IMG/VR virus record: IMGVR_UViG_3300036760_000150
Span: 62,001 to 126,000 of that record
Strand: one strand, 5' to 3'
Length of the DNA: 64,000 nt
Origin: a virus
Shown here: one piece after another, positions 698 through 61,889 of the stretch
How the letters are laid out: every line of letters starts with the position of its first letter
How positions within the stretch are numbered: the stretch's first letter is position 1
The notes under the pieces: generated by a model
What the model was told of the DNA's origin: nothing
The model's database searches: none
Seen by the model: the letters and a program-made list of their open reading frames with translations, nothing else
Program-made: the position numbers and the translations under genes

Positions 698-2545
698 TTA
701 GAATCTTGGTTCCCACTTATCCCACTCCTGCTCTCTGTCAGCTTGCGATAGGGTGCGCTGTGTGGAGTGGTAGTCTGCTGCTTCCTCTGAGTCTAGTGTA
801 GAATCTCTTTGAAACACCACTATACCAGACAGCCCCATCAACATCTTCGCAACAGAGAGGCTGTTCTTTATAGCGTACAGTACCGCCGAGGCCGAGTCAA
901 TGACACCGATCTCGATAGCGTCTCCGAACTTATGATTTAAAGCATCGTACGTGTAGAAGAGGGCGGTCGATGTCTGCTCTTTCTTTAGCAACCTATCAAG
1001 CCAACTGCGACGGTTGAACATCATATTCTGCCAGATCTCTAATACCTCACCGATATTCTGTCCACCATTCGTCAAGATGCGCCTGAATGGCTCCACAAGA
1101 GACTTACCCATGATGTACTTGACTGCGTCTGATAGGGCTGGGTTGTTGTGTATCTGACTAGCTAAAGTGTTGAGCGTCTTGGCGCACCCAGGCAGGACAC
1201 CGTCTTTTATAGCACCCTTTATAGCACATACGGCATCTTCTACCCTATGACGCTTCTCCTTGAGTTCAGCCTCAGAGCTGCCATACACCTTGAGCCTGGC
1301 GATGCCACCAGTTAGTATAGACATACGCTCTTTCATCATCTCGGCGTCGTACACACTCTCTGCCTGTTTGGCTTGCTGCTCAAGCTCCTCAACCCGTGGT
1401 ATCAACAGGCCTTCATCTGGGGTACCGATGATCAGACTTTTGTAACGACTATATTCAAACGTCTTCATGCTGTCTATGCCGAGGTCTTTTATCTCAGCTC
1501 CAGGAAGAGGCTTACTGAGAGGGTCGAACACAGATGCTCCAGTGAACGATGATACGTCTAAGAGGAAGTGGTACGGGCTGTTTGCCTGATGAGTCATAGG
1601 GGTGATCACAGGTATCACGTTGATGGTGTTTGGAGCTTTGAAGTTTGACGCCAATGTGGCAACGACGCTCTCAGAGAAGGCGTGAGCGATCAAAACTATG
1701 TTAGGCGACATAGCGTCTTTATCGTGTTGTTGAGCGTCAGATGCATTACCGATCTTATCGAACAAAGGCAACAGTGAGTTTATATCTGTGATCTTCCCGT
1801 TGTACAGAATAAACTTTGGCTTGTCTAGCATCGTCCTGTAATTCGACCTGTCGTTGATGAACTCCTCAAGGAAACGTCCGCAACTGTCTTCAAACCCTCT
1901 TGCGATAGGGAAACCGTCCACTTTCTCAACTCCGAAGCCTCCCATACCAGATGACTCTGCGATCGTAACCTGACCATTTGTGCCTACTAGACCAAAACAC
2001 TCCATTACCGCATCGGTCATCTCGACGTCGTTGTTCGTGGAGATCAACGCCACCTTACGCATGAGGTCATCTTTGTTCTCGTTGGTTATCCTGACAGCGT
2101 TACTTCGTATGAAGGGGACTATGAAGTTCTCAAACGACTTCTCAAGCTCGCGCATGATCTTCTGAGAAGACAGACGTGGATTCTTCTCCAAGTACTCAAA
2201 ACCGTTTCGTATTAAGGAGTCCGCCAGGATCGTAGCTGTAGTGGTCCCATCCCCTGCCTCTACGTTAGTTTTCGAGCTACTGTCCCTGGCGGCCTCCAGC
2301 ACTACCTGCGCAGTTGGATCTGCGAAGGCCATTGAATTGAACACCGTTATGCCATCTTTCGATAGGTAAGGTCCTAGGTTCTCCTGACGTTCGATGAGAA
2401 CTACCTTGCCGTTGGGGCCTAGTGTACTTCCTACCATTGCACTGGCTTTAGCAAGCGTCTTTAAGACTATATCTTTCAACTTTTGATGGTTGTAGGTAAT
2501 CGTCTTCGCTGCAGTTTTAGACTTAGCTACCTCTCGGTAGTACAT
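698..2545 (-). CDS. Phage GroEL-like chaperonin
   Basis: This 615-residue protein aligns by eye with group I chaperonins. It has an equatorial nucleotide-binding segment containing GDGTTTAT (about residues 98-105), an earlier STLGPNGK segment, and a C-terminal RVEDAV segment matching the part of GroEL that carries the ATP-hydrolysis aspartate. It is longer than bacterial GroEL (about 548 aa) and lacks the usual GGM-rich tail, ending in a charged stretch. GroEL forms rings that fold proteins in the cytoplasm; phage versions are thought to fold virion or replication proteins. The chosen ATG at 2545 follows AGGGAGGA; an in-frame start at 2620 would give 25 more residues but no comparable ribosome site. 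No GroES partner is visible in the window. It is the first gene of a minus-strand operon with the zinc-ribbon and sbcC-like genes. Confidence 0.92.
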   Translation of the reverse strand: MYYREVAKSKTAAKTITYNHQKLKDIVLKTLAKASAMVGSTLGPNGKVVLIERQENLGPYLSKDGITVFNSMAFADPTAQVVLEAARDSSSKTNVEAGDGTTTATILADSLIRNGFEYLEKNPRLSSQKIMRELEKSFENFIVPFIRSNAVRITNENKDDLMRKVALISTNNDVEMTDAVMECFGLVGTNGQVTIAESSGMGGFGVEKVDGFPIARGFEDSCGRFLEEFINDRSNYRTMLDKPKFILYNGKITDINSLLPLFDKIGNASDAQQHDKDAMSPNIVLIAHAFSESVVATLASNFKAPNTINVIPVITPMTHQANSPYHFLLDVSSFTGASVFDPLSKPLPGAEIKDLGIDSMKTFEYSRYKSLIIGTPDEGLLIPRVEELEQQAKQAESVYDAEMMKERMSILTGGIARLKVYGSSEAELKEKRHRVEDAVCAIKGAIKDGVLPGCAKTLNTLASQIHNNPALSDAVKYIMGKSLVEPFRRILTNGGQNIGEVLEIWQNMMFNRRSWLDRLLKKEQTSTALFYTYDALNHKFGDAIEIGVIDSASAVLYAIKNSLSVAKMLMGLSGIVVFQRDSTLDSEEAADYHSTQRTLSQADREQEWDKWEPRF

Positions 2546-2590
2546 CGAGCTTCCTCCCTGTGTAACTTCTTTACACCATATGCTCCTGTC

Positions 2591-2620
2591 AAGATAACAC
2601 ACACAGCCTAAAGCTGACAA
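2591..2620 (-). promoter_or_regulatory. Candidate sigma-70 promoter for the groEL-like operon
   Basis: Read on the minus strand, TTGTCA (2620-2615) is followed after 18 bases by TATCTT (2596-2591). This would give a leader of about 40 bases before the ATG at 2545. The match is moderate (TTGTCA good, TATCTT 4 of 6). It lies back to back with the plus-strand promoter at 2655-2683. Confidence 0.45.
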
Positions 2621-4156: not shown

Positions 4157-5596
4157 GTGAGATTTGTCCAAAGAGATCCTTTAAAACTTTACGTACACGA
4201 CTGCTCTGAGCAGGAGCGTGTAGACCTTGTTAAGTTCTTGTCTTACAAAGACAAGTCTGTCGAGTACCAGATAAAGAAGTTAAGGTCGAACGCACACTAC
4301 TACAACAGGATGGGTGAGTCTTGGTTCACTGAGCGTATCGAGACGTTGAAGTCTCAGGTCAACAAGTTCGTCATGTACCAAGACGAAGGTGGCATGTACA
4401 CCTTGGCTGGCTTGAAGACCAAGTTGGCAGGTCGTTTCATGAGTGCGACATTCGATGTTGATGTAAAAGTGCCAGAAGGATCATCTCTCCCCTGGTCTAA
4501 GGAGCCTGAGTTTCAACTGCGAGATTACCAGTTGGACGCTAAAGAGAAGTTGCTAAATGTTGTTCATGGTAACGTAGAATTGCCACAAGGATCAGGTAAA
4601 AGCAACATAATTTTGCACGTTGTCAGGGAGCTAGGCCTTAAGACGTTAGTCGTAGCCCCATCTACAAATATCGCAAAGCAGCTATATGAATTGTTTGTAT
4701 CTCACCTATCGAAGAAGTATGTTGGATTCTACGGTGGTGGTAAGAAAGAGACGAAGAAGTTGATAACGGTCTCCATAGCTCAGTCTGTCACTAAGATAAA
4801 TCCTGGATCTGAAGAATGGAAGAACTTGTCATCTTGTGATGTATTCGTGGCAGACGAGAATCATCTGTTTGCTGCCGATACTTTTGCCAAGATTGCAACC
4901 GGTATTGCAGCCGGTTCTGTATGGCGGATGTTTTTCTCAGCTACTCCTGAGAGGAACGATGGTAAAGATATACTTCTACAGGGCGTCATAGGTGATGCTG
5001 TGTGCAAGAAGACTCCAATAGAGTTGATGGAGAGTGGCCACCTTGCGAAGATCAGCACATTAGTCGTAGATGTTGAGTCTGAAGATACATACATGACAGA
5101 CAACGCATTGAAGATGAACCAGACGCATCTATACTCAAACAGGAAGATAGTGAAGTTCATATCTGACGTGTGCTACTCTTCGTTCATGGATGGCGTCCCA
5201 ACGTTAATCTTGGTCGACGAGCACTCACAAGAGGCTCTTCTTAAAGCTCACATGCGTAATACATACGAGTATGCCTCAGGTCAGTCTGACACATCTAAGA
5301 TCGTAAAAGATTTCAACGATGGTAAGATCCTTTGTGTAGTTGGTACCTCTGCGGTTAGCATGGGTACTGACTTCAAACCAGTCAGGTTGACGATCGCATG
5401 GCAAGGCAACAAGTCTGGTACCAAGGTTAAACAAGGGCCTATTGGCCGTAGCACTAGAATTGACGAGAAGAGTGGCAAGAAAGACTGTAAGATAATTGAT
5501 TTCAGGGTCACCAACGCTCCAATGCTTAAACGTCATGCTGATGTTAGGATCAAACACTACATGGAGGTTGGGCCGGTAAGGTACACAAAAATTTAA
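4157..5596 (+). CDS. UvsW-like superfamily 2 DNA helicase
   Basis: This 479-residue protein has the SF2 helicase motifs in order: a Q-type region (FQLRDYQLDA), motif I QGSGKS near residue 145, a motif II variant ADENH, motif III FSATPER, a motif V-like segment (VVGTSAVSMGTDFKP) and motif VI IGRSTR. The layout and length match the T4 UvsW group, which unwinds recombination and stalled-fork intermediates and helps switch replication modes. The first 115 residues are a separate N-terminal domain. The start is GTG at 4157, preceded by AAAGG. It overlaps nothing and is followed one base later by the sigma-factor gene. DENH in place of DEAH or DExH is a small deviation. Confidence 0.85.
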   Translation: MRFVQRDPLKLYVHDCSEQERVDLVKFLSYKDKSVEYQIKKLRSNAHYYNRMGESWFTERIETLKSQVNKFVMYQDEGGMYTLAGLKTKLAGRFMSATFDVDVKVPEGSSLPWSKEPEFQLRDYQLDAKEKLLNVVHGNVELPQGSGKSNIILHVVRELGLKTLVVAPSTNIAKQLYELFVSHLSKKYVGFYGGGKKETKKLITVSIAQSVTKINPGSEEWKNLSSCDVFVADENHLFAADTFAKIATGIAAGSVWRMFFSATPERNDGKDILLQGVIGDAVCKKTPIELMESGHLAKISTLVVDVESEDTYMTDNALKMNQTHLYSNRKIVKFISDVCYSSFMDGVPTLILVDEHSQEALLKAHMRNTYEYASGQSDTSKIVKDFNDGKILCVVGTSAVSMGTDFKPVRLTIAWQGNKSGTKVKQGPIGRSTRIDEKSGKKDCKIIDFRVTNAPMLKRHADVRIKHYMEVGPVRYTKI

Positions 5597-5597
5597 C

Positions 5598-6884
5598 ATG
5601 GACGAGAACAGTTTACTGTACACATACATAAAGGAGTTGAACGAAGAAGCCAAGTTGCTTGATCATGGCGTCATAGACTCGTTGTTTGCGAAGTTGATAT
5701 CTCTTGAGAAGTCATTTGAGGTTAAACTCCGCAAGACTGCGAAAGGTAGAAAGATCTATGCTGTGTTCATCAACATGATCTACAAGTCTAACCGAGGTAT
5801 GATCTCCCTAAGGCCTTACTTCCGTCAACGTGAGCACATGTTCTTGGGTACGATTAACAAAGCGGTGGAGAACAACAAGCCAGAGGAGCTGTATGGTTCC
5901 CCTGTCAACTACAGGTTCATGGCATTTGCGTTAGAATGTCTTAACAGCGCCAACGATGAGAAGAGAAATAGCACATCAGATGCTGGTGAAAATCATCAAA
6001 AAGAACTCGCAGACATACTTGAGAAAGTTAAGATAGTCAGAAATGAGATCGTCAACAGCAACCTGTTCCTCTCTCTAGGACGAGCTAAGATACACAGCCG
6101 ATCGTCTTACAGCTCCTCCATAGATACCTCTGACCTTGTTCAGATCGCCAACGAAGCTCTGATCACTGCTGTCGACAAGTACGTACCCGACTCAAGGTCT
6201 GTGTTCGCACATATGGCTATAGGTCGTATCATAGCTAACTTGATCGCAGAAGGGTCATCACCGTCCTCAGCAACTATAAACTCAAGTGGTAAGAAGAAGT
6301 TGTATAGGATACGGAAAGCACTTGAGAAAGCTCCATCTGCTAACAGAGCAGAGATCGCCAAGATCTTAGAGATCGCAGAGCAGGAAGTCAATGAGCTGTT
6401 AGAGTCAACACATTACTCTAGCCTTGACCAACCGTTGTATGAGGGTGATACTAGGACGTTGGGTGATACTGTAGAGGATGTGAAGACAGACCCGCATAAC
6501 GAAGTGGAACGTCGAGACATGTTCATGAAGCTGTTCAGGGCTTATGATTCATTGTCCGTGATCGAGATGAAAGTTTTAAGATTAAAAGGAGTTAACCCTA
6601 TGCGTACACTCAACAAGCATGTGGCTGTGACTGTTCCTACCTTGAAAAAAATAGAGGAAAGAACGGTGAAAGGGTTCCAGATGTCTGAGAATCTTACCAC
6701 TGCTCTGGTAGAGTCGCAGGTTATGTTTGACTCAGAGAAGTTCAAGGTTGGTGAAGTTGTCTACTTCAGGGCTGATATTAAGAATCACAGTTACATGAGT
6801 CAGAAGTACAACTTCGGTGGTAAGGAGTTCTTGCTCGTGCCAGAGGAAATGGTCGTGGCAGTTAAGAGTGCCGATGAAGCGTAA
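5598..6884 (+). CDS. Phage sigma-70-family RNA polymerase factor
   Basis: This 428-residue protein carries segments resembling sigma-70 regions in order. A region 2-like stretch (about residues 175-215) reads DLVQIANEALITAVDKY, then FAHMAIGRIIANLI. A region 3-like part contains SSLDQPLYEGDTRTLGDTVED near 275-295. A region 4-like part around 310-345 has SVIEMKVLRLKG and a helix-turn-helix. Such proteins redirect host RNA polymerase to phage promoters. The virion genes in this window share a non-host promoter element, which makes this the best candidate for the late sigma factor (inference). The last about 80 residues go beyond region 4 and may bind another factor. Its 3' end overlaps the sbcD-like start by 11 bases. 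Confidence 0.75.
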   Translation: MDENSLLYTYIKELNEEAKLLDHGVIDSLFAKLISLEKSFEVKLRKTAKGRKIYAVFINMIYKSNRGMISLRPYFRQREHMFLGTINKAVENNKPEELYGSPVNYRFMAFALECLNSANDEKRNSTSDAGENHQKELADILEKVKIVRNEIVNSNLFLSLGRAKIHSRSSYSSSIDTSDLVQIANEALITAVDKYVPDSRSVFAHMAIGRIIANLIAEGSSPSSATINSSGKKKLYRIRKALEKAPSANRAEIAKILEIAEQEVNELLESTHYSSLDQPLYEGDTRTLGDTVEDVKTDPHNEVERRDMFMKLFRAYDSLSVIEMKVLRLKGVNPMRTLNKHVAVTVPTLKKIEERTVKGFQMSENLTTALVESQVMFDSEKFKVGEVVYFRADIKNHSYMSQKYNFGGKEFLLVPEEMVVAVKSADEA

Positions 6885-7902
6885 GTACATTCTCGTAGGA
6901 GACTTGCATGCTCAAGTTGGTAACCTTGAGGATACCGAGGTGGTGTTTGATAAAGTAGCTATGCTTGTTCGTGAGCATGGTATCGAGTTTGTTGTTTACC
7001 TAGGAGACATGTACCACACACACTCTGTCTTAAGACAAGAAGTAGTTGAACTTCTCAGACGCAAGCTGCCTGAGACGCGAGGTACATGTCAAGGTAAGCC
7101 TGTGGTACTTGTTGGTAACCATGACTTGGTTGGCCCTACCAGCACGTCGATGAATGCTTGTGAGTTGACTCTGTCTGATGTGGCTGCTGTCGTATCTGAG
7201 CCAGTAGAGGCTGGACCTGTGTTGTACATGCCATTCACCCCTGATAACAGTAAGTTCGTAGAGGAATGTAAGAAGTACTACGGCACATCTCTTGTTGTAT
7301 GTCATCAGACATTTGATGGTTCGCAATACGAGAATGGTTTCTATGCTCCAGGTGGAGTAGATCAAACTTTGATACCACAGAAGGTTGTCATCTCGGGTCA
7401 TATACATAAATCGCAGAAAGTTGGTAAGGTTACATACGTGGGTACCCCACGAGCCCTCACTGCTGCAGAGTGTGATGAAGATAAAGGTCTTGTCATGATG
7501 ACCTACGATGATGTGACGTGTGGTGTTGAGCTTAAGATGTACTCGTTGAACGGATTGGTGAAGACTTACAAGAAAGTTGACGTACAAGAACCAGCTGAGT
7601 TTGATATGCCGCTTTTGAACGGTTGGGGAGCCAAAGACCACGTCATGCTGCATGTGCATGGATCTGAAGACTACTGTGAAACCTTCGTGAAAGATAAGTT
7701 ACCCGTACTAAAACAGCTTCGACCTAAGACGACTATAAAGGTGGCCTGTCATGTAGAGAAAGTTGTTGATGGTAAACCTATCATGGACGTATCCTCTGAG
7801 AGTGTTACGGATTCACTTCGTAAGTATGTAATGGAAGTTGCTGACATGAAGGCGACACTAAGAGAGAGGGTATGGGAGACGATATCAAGAGAACTGAAGT
7901 AG
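6874..7902 (+). CDS. SbcD/gp47 (Mre11)-like nuclease
   Basis: This 342-residue calcineurin-type metallophosphoesterase has all the metal-ligand motifs: GDLHAQ (Asp10, His12), LGD (Asp45), GNHD (Asn82, His83) and GHIH (His176, His178). This matches Mre11, SbcD and T4 gp47, the nuclease subunit that works with the SbcC/gp46 ATPase in end resection and recombination-dependent replication. The ATG at 6874 overlaps the end of the sigma-factor gene; a longer in-frame start at 6817 would lie deep in that gene and spoil the usual N-terminal strand. Its ATPase partner is encoded about 6.5 kb away on the opposite strand. Confidence 0.88.
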   Translation: MKRKYILVGDLHAQVGNLEDTEVVFDKVAMLVREHGIEFVVYLGDMYHTHSVLRQEVVELLRRKLPETRGTCQGKPVVLVGNHDLVGPTSTSMNACELTLSDVAAVVSEPVEAGPVLYMPFTPDNSKFVEECKKYYGTSLVVCHQTFDGSQYENGFYAPGGVDQTLIPQKVVISGHIHKSQKVGKVTYVGTPRALTAAECDEDKGLVMMTYDDVTCGVELKMYSLNGLVKTYKKVDVQEPAEFDMPLLNGWGAKDHVMLHVHGSEDYCETFVKDKLPVLKQLRPKTTIKVACHVEKVVDGKPIMDVSSESVTDSLRKYVMEVADMKATLRERVWETISRELK

Positions 7903-8859: not shown

Positions 8860-10765
8860 ACAGAATTTCATAGATATAAATGCTCTATCGCCCGATCAGC
8901 GCGATGAGATACTAAGAGCACTTGTTACCAAGCGTCTTACCACTCGTGAAGACCTTAGCATGTGGCTTTTGTTCTTCTTAGGCGTTGACCTTGCTGACTG
9001 TACGGTGTCTAGGTTTGCCACTTCAAATCCTTTGGATATGGTGTGGTCGATTTATCAATTTTGGGCAGATAAAACAGTCGAACACCCACTCTCCACCTTC
9101 TACATCGCCGGTCGAGCTTCTCAGAAAACACTATCTTGCGCAGTGCTTCAGGTTTTGTTGCCATTGCATTTTGGTGTTGGGGTTGTTCATTTCGGTGGCA
9201 CTAAAGATCAAGCAGGTCGAGCCTACGAGTACTTCAAGAAGTTCGTCAGTCGACCATACATACGGGGCTACCTCAAAGATGAGCCCACTCAGACTAAGAC
9301 TTTGTTCAACATAGCTGGAATAGATGAGGAGGTTGAGCATGCAAACGCATCGTTCAACGTAGCCGACAGTGAAGTTAAGATCCAGATATTGCCAATATCC
9401 TCCATGTCAGTACAGGGGCCACATGAACCAGTCGTCTCTCTTGATGAACTGTCCAGCCTCACTCCTGACAAGATCAGGGCATATGAAGACGTATCTGGCG
9501 TTCCTATCTCTAACCCTGTAGATGGTCATCCATGGGTTAAATTTGGCATTAGCTCTCGTAAAGGTAAGTACACCGTCATCGAGACTGAGTACGACAGGCG
9601 TGATAAGTCGGGTGTTATTTTTAAGTTCTGGACTGTGTTGGAGAATACCAAGGCATGTCCTGAATCTATCAGGACTAACATACCCCTTGAGATGTACGTA
9701 AATGTCTATGAGAATGTAGCGATACTGCAAGATGCTTACGATCAACTGGAACCTCTCAAGAAGTCACAGTATGAGAAGATACAGGCCTACAAGGGGTGTT
9801 ACACATGTCCCTTGAAGGCACTTTGCGCTGGCGATGCTGCTAAGCAGACGTCAACATGTAAGACTTTGAGGCCCATCACATCGACGATTCAGGAGTTTAA
9901 AGAGGCACCATCTCTTGAGTGGTTCTTGAGTCAGAAGATGTCTCTGACACCAGCTTCAGAAGGTCTGGTGTTGCCCAAGTTCAATCGTGAGAACTTTGAG
10001 AAGACTCCTCGTGAGATCTACAATATCTGGACTGGTACTGATCCTGGTAGGGAGATCACAAAGGAAGAACTTGTCGTTGAGATGATCAAGGCTGGCGTCA
10101 AGAGACATATGGGGCTTGATCATGGTTACTCGCATCCTGCTTCGTTTGTCGTGGTATTTCAAGATCCAGCCGACAACATCTACGTCATGAAAGTTATCAA
10201 GAGGGTTGGTTTGGAGCCTAACGAGGTTGTTGAGCTTGTTGCGAAGTTGAAGAACATATACCATTTAACTCGATGTCACCCTGACACGGCAAGACCTGAT
10301 GTCAACAAGATGTTGAGGAAAGTTATAAAAGTAGGTGATGATTTTGACAAAGACGTTGATAGGGGTATAACGTTGATTCGTGGCAAGATCTCCCCAACCG
10401 TTGGAAGTACTAAGTTCTTCGGTATCAAAGGTGAAGTTGAAGATTTGAGTTTTGAGCTTGAGAGGTATCACTATGATACTGACTCGGCTGGTAAGATCAC
10501 TGAAGAGGTGGTAAAGGAGCTGGATGATGCTATCGACGCGCTCTCCTACGATGCTCAGAACCAGTGGGGCAATAGTGCTGTGAACATACCTCCTGCAGAT
10601 GAAGTCAAGGGCAAAGAAGAGACGCGAGAACAGTACGCTGAGCAAGTTAAGGCTCAGATGAACAACTGGCTGTCCAGTCAGATCAGAGAGCATGTGGTAG
10701 AGCAGAAAGGTAGCGCTGGCAGCACTGGTCAATCGAAGAATTCTGGTGTGGTATGGGATTTCTGA
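8852..10765 (+). CDS. Large terminase subunit (TerL), packaging ATPase-nuclease
   Basis: This 637-residue protein has the two-domain plan of TerL. The ATPase domain shows a variant Walker A, AGRASQKTLS, near residue 90 and Walker B plus catalytic acid in VVSLDELS near 195. The RNase H-like nuclease domain has acidic residues in GLDHGYSHP (near 422) and in DDAIDALSYD (near 557). It pumps DNA into the prohead through the portal and cuts the concatemer. Between the domains is a cysteine cluster C-x2-C-x5-C-x9-C (about residues 318-337), which looks metal-binding and is unusual for TerL. The start is GTG at 8852, overlapping the upstream gene by 8 bases. Confidence 0.9.
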   Translation: MNEQNFIDINALSPDQRDEILRALVTKRLTTREDLSMWLLFFLGVDLADCTVSRFATSNPLDMVWSIYQFWADKTVEHPLSTFYIAGRASQKTLSCAVLQVLLPLHFGVGVVHFGGTKDQAGRAYEYFKKFVSRPYIRGYLKDEPTQTKTLFNIAGIDEEVEHANASFNVADSEVKIQILPISSMSVQGPHEPVVSLDELSSLTPDKIRAYEDVSGVPISNPVDGHPWVKFGISSRKGKYTVIETEYDRRDKSGVIFKFWTVLENTKACPESIRTNIPLEMYVNVYENVAILQDAYDQLEPLKKSQYEKIQAYKGCYTCPLKALCAGDAAKQTSTCKTLRPITSTIQEFKEAPSLEWFLSQKMSLTPASEGLVLPKFNRENFEKTPREIYNIWTGTDPGREITKEELVVEMIKAGVKRHMGLDHGYSHPASFVVVFQDPADNIYVMKVIKRVGLEPNEVVELVAKLKNIYHLTRCHPDTARPDVNKMLRKVIKVGDDFDKDVDRGITLIRGKISPTVGSTKFFGIKGEVEDLSFELERYHYDTDSAGKITEEVVKELDDAIDALSYDAQNQWGNSAVNIPPADEVKGKEETREQYAEQVKAQMNNWLSSQIREHVVEQKGSAGSTGQSKNSGVVWDF

Positions 10766-10779
10766 GCAAGATCAGGGAT

Positions 10780-10801
10780 TTAGGTTAAAAGCTTAATTTT
10801 A
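10780..10801 (+). promoter_or_regulatory. Phage late-type promoter element
   Basis: TTAG (10780-10783), 8 bases, then CTTAATTTTA (10792-10801), 32 bases before the ATG of the structural gene at 10833, which has its own GAGGAG site. It is one of six matches to TTA(G/T)-N8-CTTAAT(C/T)TTA, all upstream of virion genes. Confidence 0.7.
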
Positions 10802-14827: not shown

Positions 14828-14874
14828 GACATCATTTGTGTAATCATACTGAAAAGATAAGATATTACAATAAC

Positions 14875-14896
14875 TTATATCAGAACCTTAATCTTA
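14875..14896 (+). promoter_or_regulatory. Phage late-type promoter element
   Basis: TTAT (14875-14878), 8 bases, then CTTAATCTTA (14887-14896). It directly abuts the prohead protease start codons (ATG at 14897 and 14903), so a transcript from it would have almost no leader. Confidence 0.6.
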
Positions 14897-14902
14897 ATGT
14901 AT

Positions 14903-15841
14903 ATGGCAGCCTTAAAGAAGAACTTGATAGTTGAGGGAGTACTCACAGCCCAAGTACCTGACACGGCTGGTGAAGTCCTTGACATATCTGGCGCCGACAT
15001 AAGCGACCTTAAGACTGGTCGTAGCCCCGTCAACACTGAACATATCAACCCGGACGACATCAAGAAAGACAGTGACGACAACGGGTTCCAGTCTATCGTG
15101 GGCCGCGTGATTGACGCAAAAAAGATCTTCAGCGAAGAAGACTGTGACAGCCCTGATGAACTTAGGGCTTACAAGAACCTCAAAGTGCCTTTAATCTGGG
15201 GTAAGATCGAGATATTCGACAACGACAAGTCGCACGACAACGCTCGTGCTGCAGCCTCGATCATCAGGAACTACGCCGATGCAGGTGTCAAGCAGTTGCT
15301 TGGGTACTCTGTCGAAGGCAACACATTGAGAAGAGACGGAAATTTACTTAAAGAAACGGTGATCAAGAGGATCGCCTTGACAGCCAAGCCTGCTAACAAG
15401 GCAGCTGTCGTTCAGGTTGTGAAGGACCAGCCGCAATCTACCTCTGCTTCTATTACAAAGTCAACGAGTAGCATTGGCGGCTATGAGCCCCTCTTTAAAT
15501 CTGAGAACTTCATGAGCCACATGCGCGTGGTCAAGGATGACTACGGTCTGTCAGGCGCCATCTTCAAGTTGAAGAAAGCTCTGACGGCAGGTGGTTCAAA
15601 CGTACCCCCAGGCAACCTCACGAACGGGTCGGCGTTGCAGCCAGAGTCCCAGCTAGGAAAGCTAAAGAAACTGATCGGACGACAGAAGATCAGTAGGGAC
15701 CTTCTAAGACGCCATCTACCTAAGATCTCTGAGGAAGACCTGGACAAGGTCGAAGCTGTCCTGAAGGCAGAGCGTGAGGCTGTAGACCTCAAATCTGCGC
15801 AGGATACCTACGACCAGATAACTAAAGGTTTTAAACAATAA
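14903..15841 (+). CDS. Prohead maturation protease
   Basis: This 312-residue protein resembles HK97-type (U35) prohead proteases in its first 180 residues. It has an N-terminal strand VEGVLTAQVPD, a NTEHIN segment that may hold the catalytic histidine, an IVGRVID strand, LLGYSVEG, and the characteristic late motif IKRIALTAKPANKAA. Such serine proteases cut scaffold and capsid N-termini in the prohead. A flexible Ser/Thr linker follows, then a segment (about residues 223-250) that closely matches the N-terminus of the major capsid protein, then a helical tail. ATG 14903 is chosen over 14897 because the late promoter ends at 14896; neither has a Shine-Dalgarno site. Catalytic residues are inferred from pattern only. 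Confidence 0.75.
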   Translation: MAALKKNLIVEGVLTAQVPDTAGEVLDISGADISDLKTGRSPVNTEHINPDDIKKDSDDNGFQSIVGRVIDAKKIFSEEDCDSPDELRAYKNLKVPLIWGKIEIFDNDKSHDNARAAASIIRNYADAGVKQLLGYSVEGNTLRRDGNLLKETVIKRIALTAKPANKAAVVQVVKDQPQSTSASITKSTSSIGGYEPLFKSENFMSHMRVVKDDYGLSGAIFKLKKALTAGGSNVPPGNLTNGSALQPESQLGKLKKLIGRQKISRDLLRRHLPKISEEDLDKVEAVLKAEREAVDLKSAQDTYDQITKGFKQ

Positions 15842-25636: not shown

Positions 25637-25660
25637 CGGTTCCTGAATAAGATCAACAAG

Positions 25661-25682
25661 TTAGGGTAAAGTCTTAATCTTA
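25661..25682 (+). promoter_or_regulatory. Phage late-type promoter element
   Basis: TTAG (25661-25664), 8 bases, then CTTAATCTTA (25673-25682), 30 bases before the ATG at 25713. The flanks (AAAGT before, TTGAAGAATCT after) also match the element at 33307-33328. Confidence 0.75.
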
Positions 25683-27169: not shown

Positions 27170-30100
27170 ATGGAAGATAGTAATCGCAAAGACATCTTGA
27201 CATCAAAAGATATCAACGAATCGTTGACGTCAGATGATACCAACTTAGAGAAGTCGGTGAATACCAAGCTTGTTCATCTAGCTACTATAGCCTCACTTCT
27301 CGGTGTCCCGTACTCTTCAAACATGCAGCCACCTAAAGCTGTGGCGGCAGCTCCAGCAGTTGTCCCCAGCGCCACCCCTCATCCCGGTCTTGAGCCCATA
27401 GCGTACATGGAGTCCAGGAATGGTAGGAACCAGAGGCACAAGCTTGTGACATGGGGCCTCAACTCTGGAACCAAGGCTGTAGGCAAGTACGGCCTCATGC
27501 CACTGACTGTCCACGAGACTGCCAAGCATGACAGCACCATCGGCAGGATGTACCCTGAGTTTAAGACTCTAGACCCTATCAAGGATCACGACAAGTACGA
27601 GAAGATCTTGCTTGCCAACCCGCAGGTGCAGGACCACATCGCCAACTCACACTGGGGTAGGTTGACTCGCACCTTCGGTAAAGACAAGAACAGGGCAGTC
27701 TACGCCTGGAAGTACGGCATCACAGGTGCCAAGACTGCATCACATAGCGATGTTTCGTCTGCTCCTTACGTGAGGGAGTACAACAAGCATCACAACATGC
27801 TGAATGTTCAGACCAAGAAGAGTCTTCGCAAGTCAGAGTTTCAGCTGCCGCAGCACTTCAGTTTCATATCAGCTCAACGCGGTGGTGATCACAACCATGA
27901 CGTACATCAACGTCTGTACCAAGACCTGAGAGACTCAGGGTTCGACCCCGTTGAGGTGACGGGCCACTACGGCTACCAGGAGAGGTCTTTCCTAGTACCA
28001 CACACAGGCTCTGCTGTCGATCGCAACAAGGTCGAAGATCTAGGCAGGAAGTACAATCAGGAGAGTGTGTTACACTCGTCCGACTTGAACAACGAGCTGG
28101 TCAACCTAGAAGATCCAACGAAGAGTATGAGGGGTTCTGGCATCAGCAACGATTACAGTGATGCCATGTACACCGAGCTGCCTGGTGGTAGTAGATTTAA
28201 GTTGAACCTAAGGAAAACAGAGGTCCTTGAGAAGGCTGACGGACAACCTAACCCACAAGCTCGTCAGGTGGCAGAGGGTTACGCCAACTCAAAAGGTATC
28301 AAGCTGCGGCGTCTGACTCCGGTTAAGGTAAACCCACAGTTCGCGACGCATGTCGCTGGCGCCTACGAGAAGATGCCTCACTCTCCTAGCAGTCCAGACA
28401 CCAAACGTTCATACGACGCCTTGATCAGCGAGACGCTGGATCAGTTCCAACACATGAAGAACGCAGGCCTTAAGATATCAAAGATCAAGCCTGGCATGGA
28501 GAACCCCTACAAGTCTTCAAAAGACTTGTTCCATGACGTTCAGCACAACAACCACATGTGGTACTTTCCAACTGAGAGTGGGTTTGGATCATCTGAAACT
28601 CGTAGCGACCATCCTATGCTTGCTCCAACAGAAGAGATGCATGAGGGCAAGCCGATGCTTGCGAATGATGTGTTCAGGGTAGTTCATGATTACTTCGGAC
28701 ATGCAAAAGAAGGTCATGCCTTTGGCCCCAACGGGGAAGAGAACGCCTGGCAGACTCACGCTCAGATGTACTCGCCGGAGGCTAGACGGGCAATGACCGC
28801 CGAGACTCGTGGACAGAACAGTTGGGTTAACTTCGGGCCGCATGCTGCACACAACAGGTCAAACCCACACCAAACTGTATACGCTGATCAGAAGGCTGGG
28901 CTGTTGCCTGACTGGGCTCATGCAGTAGATCCTACACAGGCGTTTAGTAAATCAGAAGATGATGATAAAGTTCTCTACCACTACTCACAGCATCCTGAGC
29001 CGTTGAAGATCATAGACCCTGTCTTCCACGGTACTGGTTACCCTGGTGCTGAAGGCAAACGTGACGACAGAGTGGCTCGTGCGTACTACTACGACACACC
29101 GACGGGTCATGAACCTGATGTTATCTCTGGTGCTACGCATATGTACACTGTGAAGCATCCAGGCAACATACTTGACGTCGCCAGCGAAGAGGCCGAACCG
29201 TTCAAAGAGAAGGCTCGCAACCAATATGGTATCATAGACTACTCAGACCTTGAGCGTCACATGAAAGATGCTGGGTACAACGGTTACAAGAACACAGCGA
29301 GCGCCATCCCTAACGCAGTCGCTTTGTTTCATCCTCAGCAGGTTGATGAGTCGAGAGATCTACGTAAGTCGGAAGAGCTTGAGAAAGCATCTCATAACGT
29401 GCGAGAACAAAAGGCTAAGGTATTCGGCACAAAAGCTAATCCTCCTGCTGGATCGCAGATGCGTGAGAAACACATCGAACACATCAACAACTTCGCCAAG
29501 AAATTCCTTAACCTAGAGATCCGTCCTTCAGGCGGTAAGATCAACGAGGCAACAGGACAGAGACGATCTGAGAGTCCTAAGATAGGTACCGACAAACCGG
29601 ACTGGAGAAGTGGTCAACTTGAAGCTCAATGGAACCCGGAAGCTATCATGCATGAGCTTGCACACCTTATGTTGCTACCTTCAGGTGTTGGCTTAAAAGA
29701 AGGCCAAAGGCTGATGGACAAGCAGTACGGAGAGGTTCAAAGTAAATACGGATATATGCAGCAGAAAAGATCTCAGGGTGAGGTACAACCTATGGCTGCG
29801 GAGCAGATCATACGTAGACACCTAGGTCTTCCAGCCAGTCGAGTGAGCATTCCTGTTGAGTCGAAAGATGCCCCACCTAGAGTGTCAGTTGAAGCTCCAG
29901 ATGTGGTTATAGGTACACGAGTTCCACAACCCACTAAGAGTGGTGCAGTTAAATGGGTCGATCTGATCAGACAGTCCCGCCTTTTGAACACAGAGAATCG
30001 AAAGAGGTTGGAAGATATCTTTAGTGGTAACATCAAATTTCATCCAGAGTTGGGTTGGATACCGAAGAAGACATCTATATCCACACAGAAGCCCAAAGAT

Positions 30101-31771
30101 GAACTGCCTACTGGATTGGTCAACGATGATGTCGAACCTTCTAAACTTGCGTCTAGCGAGAAAGTATATACATCAGACGTCTTAGAAAAAGGCGTTAAAC
30201 AAAGGCTGTTCTACTTTAGTCCTGCAGAGGTGCCAGAAGAACATAAGCAGAAGGTGGCACAGTGGACAGATCCATTAGAGACAAATATATCTGGTGACAG
30301 AGAAGTGATACCTAGATTAGAAGGAAATGCTAGGATGAGGGCTCTGCATACTTTATCCAGCAAAACAAAGACTAGATGGAATCCTGATAAAAAAGAGAGA
30401 GAATTTTTATTACACCGAGGAGTGTCTGGAAGTGAACACAATCGTGTAATAAATAACGGACATGTAGAACATCCTGGTAAATCTTCGTGGTCTCCCAAAC
30501 ATACAACTGCCGTTAATTGGATGGATCAATATGGCGGTCTTGCTGATGAAGACCCCAGTGTACTATCTGCGTGGATACCAGAATCTAAGATACATCATGT
30601 TCCTATGCAGATTGGTGCCACAGAAAGAGTAGAGACCGTTAAGCCGGGTAATAAAAGATTTTCGCCAACAGGAAAGTTACAAGGTCCTATGGAGTGGCGC
30701 AACGAACACGAAGTGATCGTTGATCCTGGTAGTCATAAGGTGGCAACTGAAAAGGAAGTTAAGTCAACCGACAAGACCTCTGAGCCTACCGACATCAACG
30801 AGCGAATCAACCGTAAGATGACCAAGTCTGAGTATGATCCTGCCAAAGACGTCACAGCCTTCACATCTTTCTCTACAGAGCCTGGCGACATAGAGCTTGT
30901 GCGAGAGATCAACGAGATGATCGAGGCTGGTCACACCAGGCCGCTAGGTGAGAAAGGCTTGTTCACCGAGGATAGCTTCGTCGTCGGAGAGAAACCAGAT
31001 AACTCTTGGCTTATCAAGGTTGAGGTAGGAAACACGCCCGGCATTAAAGCTGTTCAGTACACCGGCCCTCAGTCTGTTAAAGAGGCCGCCTTCTACAAGG
31101 CCTCAGAACAAGTGTTCGGTCTGTCTCGCTTCGTGCCCAAGTCTGTGCTCGGTGAGGTGCAGACCAAGGACGTACCCAAACTGGCGGTGGCCATCAAGAT
31201 GCTGCCTCCTGAGTTCAAGAACGCCGCCGAGACAGAGGGTGACATCAAAGGTATGATGAAAGGTCTCCTTGAGAAGTACAAGGAGGCAGGTCTCTCTCAC
31301 ATGCTTGCGTTCATGCTCTACGTGTTGGGCGACCTCGATGCCCACGGCAACAACTTGATGACAGACGGGTACAACGTCGTGTTGATAGATCATGGCAGCT
31401 CGTTTGCCGACCTGTCTTCTGAGGACAAGTCTGACAAGAAGCAGTTCGTACCTTACATCTTGAGGCATGAGGGTTTCAAAGGTAAGTTGTCTGACAACGA
31501 CAAGCAGTCTCACATGCCGTTGATCGATAGCCCCGAGATAAGGGCTAACTTGAAAGAGTACATCATGTCTGTAGATCCTAAGAAGTTACATGACGTCGTA
31601 GTCAGCTACGGTCTAAATCCGGTACCATCAGTCACACGTCTTAAGGTCGCGCAGAAGATGCTTGAGCACTCAGACCACCCTGACGTATTAGTGAACTACG
31701 TTTGGATAAAAGGTGCACCTGCGGACCTAGTTGAAGAGCAAGAAGGAGTCGCACATGAAGTTGGAGCCTGA
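27170..31771 (+). CDS. Giant polyvalent-type virion protein: lysozyme-like, ART-like, zincin and kinase-like domains
   Basis: This 1533-residue protein shows several domain signatures in order. A lytic-transglycosylase-like segment lies near 75-115 (IAYMESRNG ... VGKYGLMPLTVHET). A DUF3293-like segment lies near 235-275 (FISAQRGGDHN ... YQERSFLVP). A conserved VHDYFGHA region lies near 500-560. An ADP-ribosyltransferase-like segment spans about 600-725 (VLYHYSQHPEPL ... DAGYNGYKN). A zincin motif HELAH lies at 828-832. A second ART-like segment has LHRGVSG (Arg1083), SSWS near 1106 and an E-H-E triplet near 1179-1181. A kinase-like C-terminus has GDLDAHGNN and VVLIDHGSSF near 1385-1412. This matches the polyvalent proteins proposed to be packaged and injected by phages. 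It lies among virion genes. Activities are inferred from motifs only, and domain borders are approximate. The ribosome site of the ATG is weak. Confidence 0.8.
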   Translation: MEDSNRKDILTSKDINESLTSDDTNLEKSVNTKLVHLATIASLLGVPYSSNMQPPKAVAAAPAVVPSATPHPGLEPIAYMESRNGRNQRHKLVTWGLNSGTKAVGKYGLMPLTVHETAKHDSTIGRMYPEFKTLDPIKDHDKYEKILLANPQVQDHIANSHWGRLTRTFGKDKNRAVYAWKYGITGAKTASHSDVSSAPYVREYNKHHNMLNVQTKKSLRKSEFQLPQHFSFISAQRGGDHNHDVHQRLYQDLRDSGFDPVEVTGHYGYQERSFLVPHTGSAVDRNKVEDLGRKYNQESVLHSSDLNNELVNLEDPTKSMRGSGISNDYSDAMYTELPGGSRFKLNLRKTEVLEKADGQPNPQARQVAEGYANSKGIKLRRLTPVKVNPQFATHVAGAYEKMPHSPSSPDTKRSYDALISETLDQFQHMKNAGLKISKIKPGMENPYKSSKDLFHDVQHNNHMWYFPTESGFGSSETRSDHPMLAPTEEMHEGKPMLANDVFRVVHDYFGHAKEGHAFGPNGEENAWQTHAQMYSPEARRAMTAETRGQNSWVNFGPHAAHNRSNPHQTVYADQKAGLLPDWAHAVDPTQAFSKSEDDDKVLYHYSQHPEPLKIIDPVFHGTGYPGAEGKRDDRVARAYYYDTPTGHEPDVISGATHMYTVKHPGNILDVASEEAEPFKEKARNQYGIIDYSDLERHMKDAGYNGYKNTASAIPNAVALFHPQQVDESRDLRKSEELEKASHNVREQKAKVFGTKANPPAGSQMREKHIEHINNFAKKFLNLEIRPSGGKINEATGQRRSESPKIGTDKPDWRSGQLEAQWNPEAIMHELAHLMLLPSGVGLKEGQRLMDKQYGEVQSKYGYMQQKRSQGEVQPMAAEQIIRRHLGLPASRVSIPVESKDAPPRVSVEAPDVVIGTRVPQPTKSGAVKWVDLIRQSRLLNTENRKRLEDIFSGNIKFHPELGWIPKKTSISTQKPKDELPTGLVNDDVEPSKLASSEKVYTSDVLEKGVKQRLFYFSPAEVPEEHKQKVAQWTDPLETNISGDREVIPRLEGNARMRALHTLSSKTKTRWNPDKKEREFLLHRGVSGSEHNRVINNGHVEHPGKSSWSPKHTTAVNWMDQYGGLADEDPSVLSAWIPESKIHHVPMQIGATERVETVKPGNKRFSPTGKLQGPMEWRNEHEVIVDPGSHKVATEKEVKSTDKTSEPTDINERINRKMTKSEYDPAKDVTAFTSFSTEPGDIELVREINEMIEAGHTRPLGEKGLFTEDSFVVGEKPDNSWLIKVEVGNTPGIKAVQYTGPQSVKEAAFYKASEQVFGLSRFVPKSVLGEVQTKDVPKLAVAIKMLPPEFKNAAETEGDIKGMMKGLLEKYKEAGLSHMLAFMLYVLGDLDAHGNNLMTDGYNVVLIDHGSSFADLSSEDKSDKKQFVPYILRHEGFKGKLSDNDKQSHMPLIDSPEIRANLKEYIMSVDPKKLHDVVVSYGLNPVPSVTRLKVAQKMLEHSDHPDVLVNYVWIKGAPADLVEEQEGVAHEVGA

Positions 31772-33289: not shown

Positions 33290-33306
33290 CTAGTGAAAAC
33301 ACATAC

Positions 33307-33328
33307 TTAGCTTAAAGTCTTAATTTTA
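33307..33328 (+). promoter_or_regulatory. Phage late-type promoter element
   Basis: TTAG (33307-33310), 8 bases, then CTTAATTTTA (33319-33328), 30 bases before the ATG at 33359, exactly as at 25661-25682. A partial second core, CTTAATCCTA, lies at 33338-33347. Confidence 0.75.
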
Positions 33329-44022: not shown

Positions 44023-44052
44023 GTACTTGGAAATCTTAATCTATCCGATAGT

Positions 44053-44074
44053 TTATGCTTCAGTCTTAATTTTA
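44053..44074 (+). promoter_or_regulatory. Phage late-type promoter element
   Basis: TTAT (44053-44056), 8 bases, then CTTAATTTTA (44065-44074), 10 bases before the ATG at 44085. The very short distance suggests an mRNA with little or no leader. Confidence 0.55.
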
Positions 44075-45962: not shown

Positions 45963-45978
45963 TATAGATATCAGCAAC

Positions 45979-46000
45979 TTAGAACTAAATCTTAATCTTA
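45979..46000 (+). promoter_or_regulatory. Phage late-type promoter element before the tail sheath gene
   Basis: TTAG (45979-45982), 8 bases, then CTTAATCTTA (45991-46000), 24 bases before the ATG at 46025, with AGGAG between. Confidence 0.7.
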
Positions 46001-60727: not shown

Positions 60728-60745
60728 GGCAGCCCTTAGGCTGCC
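60728..60745 (-). terminator. Hairpin at the end of the DUF932-like gene (weak terminator or attenuator)
   Basis: GGCAGCC and GGCTGCC form a perfect 7-base stem around a 4-base loop that spans the stop codon at 60738-60736. On the minus strand it is followed by TTCCCCTTG, a poor U-tract. It may partly terminate or protect the 3' end of the upstream mRNA. Confidence 0.45.
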
Positions 60746-61698
60746 ACCGCCATCGCCACTGCAGTCTCAAGTGCACGTTTGTTGAGCTGAGCACTCTGTC
60801 CGAACCACATCTGGTCGAGTCGAATAGCGTTGTCTTCACCACGGACAAACTGGAGATACTCGTTCACCGAGTTGTATGCTCCCCAAAGTGTACCTTTGAC
60901 GCCGGGAAGGTCGTTGCCACGGCCCTTCTCGAAGATAGGTTGCACAGCGGCCAAGATCCGTTTGTTGTTGATGTCGGCGACATCGCCGCCAGCTTCGATG
61001 ATCTTCTTGTTGGAGTTGAACACCAGCTTCACGTACCTCTCGAAGTCTTTCTGGTTGATCTGACGTGACGCAAGCGCACGGTACTGGGCTGCTGTGGCCT
61101 CGAACTCAGCGTTGGCCAAGTTCATGATACCACGGATGTCTTCGAGGTTCTGGGTGACGTTCTTCGTGTGGCGGACTCGGATGAGCTTTGATCCTTCATG
61201 TCCGTGAGCCATGGCCAATGTGTTAGCGCACACGACCCTCACAGGAGTGAAACCGACTCGGACGGCGAGTGTGCCATCGTGGCTGTTCGACAGCAGGACG
61301 TACTTCTCGACGGCGTCACCTTTGACGATCTCGGTTGGGTCGAGGGCCAACTTAGCAAGGACGAACACACGTTGTCCACCACGAAGCGAACCTGCAGTCT
61401 CGATGGCAGCCTGCTTCTCGTCGATGAATGGACGGAAGAAGTTGAAGGCGTCGGTGTTCTGGAGTGGGACGTAGGCTGGACCGACCACGCCCAAGATCTT
61501 GTTGTCAGACGACCTGCGTGTGGCCAGGGCAGGAAGCTCTTCCTGGGTGCCAGAGAACACCTTCTCTGTGGTCACCTTCCAGTCGAGACCGGCAGCGATG
61601 ATGGCCTCGTCTAGGGTGGGAGGTTCTGTGAACCGTTGACCGAGATTGTGCCAAGGAACATTACCAACATACATGATCTGTTCTACTTCGTGTGCCAT
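60736..61698 (-). CDS. DUF932 (phage/plasmid LGT family) protein
   Basis: This 320-residue protein matches DUF932/TIGR03299 well: start MAHEVEQIMYVGNVPWHNLG, then SDNKILGVVGPAYVPLQNTD and LLSNSHDGTLAVRVGFTPVR with an RVVCANTLAMA segment. These proteins are common on plasmids and phages; their role is unknown but they are often among the first genes expressed. AGGAGG precedes the ATG. It lies directly behind a near-consensus sigma-70 promoter and two operator-like repeats. Confidence 0.88.
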   Translation of the reverse strand: MAHEVEQIMYVGNVPWHNLGQRFTEPPTLDEAIIAAGLDWKVTTEKVFSGTQEELPALATRRSSDNKILGVVGPAYVPLQNTDAFNFFRPFIDEKQAAIETAGSLRGGQRVFVLAKLALDPTEIVKGDAVEKYVLLSNSHDGTLAVRVGFTPVRVVCANTLAMAHGHEGSKLIRVRHTKNVTQNLEDIRGIMNLANAEFEATAAQYRALASRQINQKDFERYVKLVFNSNKKIIEAGGDVADINNKRILAAVQPIFEKGRGNDLPGVKGTLWGAYNSVNEYLQFVRGEDNAIRLDQMWFGQSAQLNKRALETAVAMAVAA

Positions 61699-61728
61699 CT
61701 TGAACCTCCTAGAAATGGTTATAGGAAC

Positions 61729-61757
61729 ATTGTACAGTCAACCGGGTAAGATTGCAA
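61729..61757 (-). promoter_or_regulatory. Strong sigma-70 promoter for the DUF932-like gene
   Basis: Minus strand: TTGCAA (61757-61752), exactly 17 bases, TACAAT (61734-61729). Both boxes match consensus well (-10 5 of 6). It gives a leader of about 25 bases with AGGAGG. Confidence 0.8.
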
Positions 61758-61778
61758 CCATCATGCCAACCTGAAGTC

Positions 61779-61835
61779 GTTTTATACGCATAAAAACGAC
61801 CACAATGTAGACGTTGCCTACTTTATACGCATAAA
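61779..61835. promoter_or_regulatory. Twin operator-like repeats TTTATACGCATAAA
   Basis: TTTATACGCATAAA occurs at 61781-61794 and again at 61822-61835, 41 bases apart (about four helical turns). Each has inverted symmetry (TTTAT ... ATAAA) around ACGC. They lie 22 bases upstream of the -35 box and look like paired sites for a dimeric regulator. Confidence 0.6.
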
Positions 61836-61889
61836 CATCGAATTTTAAGTTGAAACAATTACTTAGATTGGTTTGGCGACATGTTGTGC

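Follow-up and report, generated by a model that had tools for sequence, protein, structure and literature searches.

Organization of the locus

The stretch of DNA analysed here, called the window throughout, comprises 64,000 nucleotides (positions 62,001 to 126,000) of the viral record IMGVR_UViG_3300036760_000150. Positions 5598-6884 of its plus strand form a single, uninterrupted open reading frame (ORF) of 428 amino acids that begins with an ATG and looks like a sigma factor gene and a GroES-like gene sharing one frame. The ORF and its surroundings contain the following features:

698..2620, minus strand: GroEL-like chaperonin (Cpn60), PF00118, with a GDGTTTAT motif; start at TTG 2620 or ATG 2545
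4157..5596, plus strand: helicase, conserved upstream neighbour; order as in Myxococcus phage Mx1
5598..6599, plus strand: sigma-70-family factor, residues 1-334, comprising regions 1.2 to 3 plus the first 4.1 helix and lacking region 4.2
6584..6591, plus strand: Shine-Dalgarno-like AAAAGGAG, 8 nt before ATG 6600, made by the C-terminal Lys-Gly codons of the sigma factor
6600..6884, plus strand: GroES/Cpn10-like co-chaperonin of 94 amino acids, in the frame of the sigma factor and with its own ATG 6600; assigned from fold, profile and occurrence as a separate gene in relatives
6880..7902, plus strand: SbcD-like phosphoesterase, conserved downstream neighbour; order as in Mx1 and several relatives

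The sigma factor ends within region 4.1

A preliminary description had recognized a sigma-70-family protein in this ORF, which is borne out by a Pfam region 3 match (PF04539, E 6e-7, above the cut-off), a PHROG sigma factor match (E 1.2e-13) and a 43-row family profile that finds solved RpoD chains at E 1.1e-12. As a single sequence, region 2 reaches only E 0.024 in Pfam, below the cut-off, and it is covered by the family profile match to RpoD (E 1.1e-12). For the AlphaFold2 model of residues 1-334 (42 rows, pLDDT 84.4), holoenzyme or transcription-complex chains, all of them from RNA polymerase entries, fill the 50 rows shown by Foldseek (best E 4.1e-6). With VIA, model residues 1..334 align to residues 92..566 of sigma70 (Z 13.9, rmsd 12.2 over 261 residues), with a domain-2 match at Z 13.2 (rmsd 3.3 over 194), values to be read knowing that helical models need a Z of about 13 or more. 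The long N-terminal part noted previously thus models onto sigma70 from residue 92 onward and corresponds to region 1.2 and the non-conserved segment before region 2.

The RpoD profile match ends at about residues 567-571 of RpoD, in region 4.1. In all 42 relatives compared (sigma ORFs of the alignment that are at least 300 amino acids long and whose stop can be read, counted once where identical but with some near-duplicates among them), the sigma ORF stops 1-20 residues (median 6) past a conserved Lys-Gly, which corresponds to residues 330-331 in the window, where the ORF runs 97 residues further. Since the profile match ends in 4.1 and these ORFs stop just after the Lys-Gly, region 4.2, the part of a sigma factor that reads the -35 element, is absent in all 42. 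One pattern scan of cellular genomes found no homologous sigma genes.

The protein had been regarded as a full-length sigma-70 in which residues ~315-361 would be a functional region 4 with a helix-turn-helix, followed by an extension of about 80 residues. The ORF is indeed continuous, VTVPTLKKIEERTVKGFQ resembles a 4.2 recognition helix by eye, and certain single-sequence sigma matches (a phmmer alignment with one SigA, together with some NCBIfam matches below cut-off) extend to residues 355-359, probably the basis of the earlier description. Nevertheless, Pfam region 4 does not match the ORF product, AlphaFold2 predicts a beta barrel there, including a loop of low confidence, and 44 of 44 relatives have this segment as the start of a protein encoded by a gene of its own. 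A region 4 with an extension is therefore highly improbable and was rejected on the basis of the barrel model, the Cpn10 fold matches, the sigma stops (42 of 42) and the separate gene (44 of 44). The label of full-length sigma-70 falls with the absence of 4.2, and the supposed region 4 and extension give way to 94 GroES-like residues with their own ribosome-binding site.

A GroES-like co-chaperonin follows the sigma factor

As judged from sequence and model, residues 335-428 are a GroES-like co-chaperonin with a predicted Cpn10 barrel (hereafter, the lid). A homologue of this segment is encoded downstream of the sigma gene in every one of the 44 distinct sigma loci whose stop can be read. The downstream start could be placed in 43 of these loci; in 38 it is no more than 30 nt from the sigma stop, the genes overlapping in 19, and in the remaining five the distance is 62-845 nt. 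A Shine-Dalgarno-like motif precedes the downstream gene in 35 of the 44 loci, a count helped by a choice of starts that favours such motifs.

For the 94 residues, AlphaFold2 (45 rows) predicts a beta barrel of moderate confidence (pLDDT 75.9, pTM 0.62), whose loop 17-31, with pLDDT under 50, sits at the place of the GroES mobile loop. Of the 45 rows, 37 have a glycine in this loop, and at the next position 44 have a hydrophobic residue. When compared with the PDB by Foldseek, the best 29 matches (recognized as co-chaperonins through entry title and chain length) are all Cpn10, GroES or T4 gp31, the latter being the 29th; the best has an E of 1.5e-3, a probability of 1.00 and a TM of ~0.5, no E-value being under 0.001. 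VIA superimposes the model on Thermus Cpn10 (Z 7.4, rmsd 3.2 over 71) and on T4 gp31 (Z 6.1, rmsd 4.4 over 84), dehydrogenase-type enzymes coming next at Z 4.8 and lower; a Z under 8 can reflect merely a common arrangement and by itself is not proof.

Profile comparisons point in the same direction. The lid family aligned by hhalign with a GroES profile (10 phage GroES plus that of E. coli) gives a probability of 94.3, an E of 1e-7 and a score of 41.6, nearly end to end except for the roof segment of GroES, and none of 300 column-shuffled GroES profiles reaches that score (maximum 20.5). The PHROG 'co-chaperonin GroES' matches seven of 46 family members (best 6e-4) and, searched over whole records, only one of 44. 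Against one GroES sequence the similarity is weak (probability 6.8), a PDB sequence-profile search with the lid family found no GroES, and Pfam Cpn10 matches none of the 46 lid family members. The protein is called GroES-like, and not filed in Pfam Cpn10, because it has no match to that family at the curated cut-off. An unrelated SH3-like barrel was also considered and discarded, with only weak SH3 matches in the PDB profile search (E 0.18 and up) and Cpn10 ranked first by the fold search.

The junction and the apparent in-frame fusion

Among the in-frame start codons between codon 2 and codon 335 of the ORF, ATG 6600 alone has a Shine-Dalgarno-like motif upstream, and the arrangement recurs in Mx1 and several relatives. 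This signal and ATG 6600 can, to judge from their layout, start the lid on its own, so that a free lid would be translated besides any 428-residue read-through fusion. Through internal initiation at 6600, a free lid would therefore be supplied whether the fusion is real or a sequence error.

The two proteins share one frame solely in this record; in relatives they are encoded by separate, mostly adjacent or overlapping genes, including the closest relative with both genes (G011/L037), where the ORFs are separate. No other fused relative was seen: one single-sequence search found no relative at all, another returned only the contig of L037, and a further search yielded closer contigs, among which L100 begins inside the lid gene, leaving the junction outside the contig. 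The confinement of the fusion to one record that is a single contig, together with the separate ORFs of G011/L037, would fit an assembly or sequencing error, in which a small indel near 6591-6600 masks the sigma stop of what are really two ordinary overlapping genes; there is, against this, no direct sign of error, and both halves are otherwise intact in frame. Such an error is a possibility to be taken seriously. It is a more tentative suggestion that the fusion is real, is made beside the free lid and either links late transcription to virion-protein folding or lets the GroES-like domain replace region 4. If true, the fusion would be a late sigma factor bearing a co-chaperonin subunit, with both tasks in one polypeptide.

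A phage-encoded GroEL-like chaperonin

Upstream of the helicase, on the minus strand, the product of 698-2620 matches PF00118 with an E of 2.3e-38 (132.6 bits against a cut-off of 34.3) and carries the GDGTTTAT motif. Of 43 related records, a number of them fragments, 38 contain Cpn60, and Pfam Cpn10 is absent at E 1 from all 44 records searched, where a second divergent Cpn10 could escape the search just as the lid does. Since Cpn60 is present in the same record and in the relatives and the group has no Pfam Cpn10, the GroES-like protein is the natural lid. Residues 335-428 thus probably partner the phage's own GroEL-like chaperonin, which they would cap for the folding of virion proteins.

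A different role for the GroES-like domain would be in transcription, for instance in place of region 4, as T4 gp33 serves gp55, and not as a chaperonin lid. The sigma linkage in 44 of 44 loci, a fusion point exactly where region 4 would come and the upstream promoter positions conserved in the window lineage (see below) are compatible with it, whereas the Cpn10 fold and profile, the mobile-loop-like segment and a GroEL without Pfam Cpn10 in the group speak for a chaperonin partner. In addition, gp33 is built of helices, as described in PMC7892883, and proximity in a phage operon does not imply a common function. A role in transcription is accordingly unlikely, and a co-chaperonin remains the preferred reading of the lid.

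In L031 (from about 2281) and in L060, a 1071-residue ORF directly follows the co-chaperonin-like gene and resembles, by eye, a C5 DNA methyltransferase with an intein-like insert at the catalytic cysteine.

A candidate late promoter motif

The preliminary description had also mentioned a matching novel promoter, without coordinates. As a motif, it stands: CTTAATYTTA occurs six times in the window, where 0.16 are expected and none of 100 shuffles reaches that count, and nine times in the 146,673-base record, always on the plus strand and always intergenic according to our own gene calls. The six candidate late promoters of the window are:

10765..10801, plus strand: CTTAATTTTA with the fixed-spacing upstream positions, before the gene preceding the portal gene
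14860..14896, plus strand: precedes the gene of the head maturation protease and abuts its ATG 14897, with a second in-frame ATG at 14903
25646..25682, plus strand: the Mx1 homologue of the gene also has CAATCTT upstream
33292..33328, plus strand: CTTAATYTTA motif
44038..44074, plus strand: CTTAATYTTA motif
45964..46000, plus strand: before the tail sheath gene; the Mx1 sheath gene has CAATCTA upstream

At 14887-14903, the core AAT lies 4 nt before ATG 14897, or 10 nt before the start if this is ATG 14903, in which case only a few nucleotides of leader would precede the coding part of the head maturation protease message.

Of the 50 distinct regions upstream of the pre-portal gene, derived from 68 sequences of the relatives, 46 contain the core [CT]AATCT[TA] (YAATCTW). 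Shuffled versions of the 50 regions give a mean of 1.0 and a maximum of 6, and the reverse strand gives 0. The four misses are the window itself (CTTAATTTTA), L037 (CTTAATAATA), L016 and L034. In the first 43.3 kb of Mx1, nine of 14 forward sites fall within 60 nt of a plus-strand start codon, a zone that holds 5.2% of the positions there, and five sites are on the reverse strand. Comparison of six motif-bearing window genes with the first 50 kb of Mx1 gave four homologues, three of them with the motif and one without.

The distance from AAT to the start codon of the pre-portal gene is 9-40 nt and at least 9 nt in 46 of 46 cases (starts chosen by script). Its value of 9 nt in several relatives implies almost no leader on some late messages. 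The frequent location of YAATCTW merely 9 nt before the start codon could be taken as a sign of a leader or translation element instead of a promoter. However, the spacing ranges over 9-40 nt and never drops below 9, the minimum for a -10 element with transcription starting ~7 nt further on, all window sites are intergenic, and the phiEco32 sigma factor without region 4 reads the similar tAATGTAtA, according to PMC8948821. A leader or translation element seems quite unlikely, and a promoter is the reading that we retain.

As for its reader, a phage RNA polymerase was sought in the same record, with no Rpb1 or Rpb2 match; PF00940, of the T7-like polymerases, matched neither this record nor the control sequences. 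From the positions of the motif we infer that YAATYTW is the promoter read by the sigma factor of residues 1-334, a part of the earlier promoter claim that goes beyond the motif. The factor would bind the host core RNA polymerase through its region 2 and would read YAATYTW, a -10-like element, before head and tail genes; without region 4.2, no -35 element would be needed. In the 30 nt upstream of the YAATCTW core of the relatives, no position at fixed spacing exceeds 0.46 bits, so there is no fixed-spacing -35 element, a blurred one being possible; its absence is as expected for a sigma factor that lacks 4.2. Residues 1-334 are probably a phage late specificity factor, with a role comparable to that of T4 gp55, and go with a distinctive promoter motif.

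The window lineage shows further constraints. The 11 sites chosen with the string CTTAATYTT share A-27 (11 of 11), C-19 (11), A-14 (10), TTA at -12 to -10 (10, 11 and 10) and A-3 (11), positions that all lie outside the string used for the choice. A matrix built from these sites adds one more in the record, the scores dropping from 32.5 to 18.0 below the twelve, and in the closest relative, G011, it finds two sites of ~23 (maximum of 20 shuffles, 18.5), one of them orthologous, before the pre-portal gene, and the other before a 215-residue ORF that precedes the protease homologue. Upstream positions 10-19 nt away (27 nt in the window) are therefore conserved in the window and a close relative. 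Since a sigma factor without 4.2 leaves these fixed-spacing positions unexplained, the conserved C-19 and TTA at -12 to -10 suggest a further DNA-binding factor in the window lineage. The long bipartite motif was not found in most relatives, where TTA-N9-CTTAAT occurs 27 times, versus 30 for the reversed control, over 43 records.

In any case, the most likely interpretation of the ORF, with a probability of roughly 0.78, is that it encodes two proteins, a putative late sigma factor (residues 1-334) that would read YAATYTW and a GroES-like lid (residues 335-428) for the GroEL-like chaperonin of the phage.

Relation to known systems

Myxococcus phage Mx1 is similar in its helicase-to-portal gene order, in its homologous sigma factor (WNM70309, 31% identity) and downstream protein (WNM70310, 28%), in the presence of a Cpn60 in its record and in a CAATCTT-type motif before several late genes. 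It differs in that the sigma factor and the downstream protein are two overlapping ORFs in different frames, and WNM70310, annotated as hypothetical, extends further at its C-terminus. In the paper on the Mx1 genome, the main text does not contain 'chaperonin' and has 'sigma' in a reference title only.

Taken singly, sigma factors that lack region 4, GroES of phages and GroEL of phages are all known already. The phiEco32 gp36 is described in PMC8948821 as a phage sigma factor that lacks region 4 and uses the single-element promoter tAATGTAtA with no -35, both of which, by that description, resemble the system proposed here; on the other hand, regions 1.2 to 4.1 of the present factor align with sigma70, its element would be YAATYTW and a co-chaperonin is paired with it. 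Similarly, T4 gp55, together with gp33, confers late specificity in the absence of a sigma region 4, according to PMC2988020 and PMC7892883, and the putative late factor described here also lacks this DNA-binding region, whereas gp55 itself consists of a region 2 homologue with a helix-loop-helix and a clamp-binding motif.

The lid shares the Cpn10 fold and a profile match with T4 gp31 and phage GroES, but it is very divergent, has no Pfam match and lacks the roof segment, and its gene stands beside a sigma gene in a genome with its own GroEL. The chaperonins of phages EL, OBP and AR9 are also phage-encoded GroEL proteins, although they are reported, in PMC9598537, to be functional without a co-chaperonin; PMC7185714 considers it possible that the phage of EL has a distant homologue of GroES, and phages carrying GroES and GroEL together are also mentioned. 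Flavobacterium phage immuto likewise has both proteins annotated, with its GroES gene adjoining that of GroEL, whereas here the lid follows the sigma factor and GroEL lies upstream on the other strand.

A literature search, with few subscription papers in its scope, returned no sigma/co-chaperonin pairing or fusion and no YAATCTW late promoter. Within the literature searched, the conserved sigma/co-chaperonin pairing and the promoter motif of the group are new, as is the in-frame fusion unless it is a sequence error. The analysis provides the group with a testable late promoter and reveals a GroEL/GroES-like pair of phage origin, and it prompts the question of why genes for late transcription and a chaperonin lid stay neighbours. 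Since Mx1 has already been isolated and grown, these proposals can be tested.

Some minor observations concern other parts of the sequence. The N-terminus of a 1533-residue protein encoded at 27170-31771 of the window weakly resembles S-AdoMet lyase (E 1.4e-5, below the cut-off) and DUF3293, and at 60736-63971, on the minus strand, a DUF932 protein (E 3.5e-56) adjoins a SNF2-like helicase (E 9e-28). Outside the window, inspection of record G000 by eye revealed a tRNA-like sequence with anticodon CAT at about 132340-132480, upstream of a short minus-strand ORF, and tandem units of ~24 bases (with CTCAAGCCAGGTCA) near 146510-146673, close to the end of the record.
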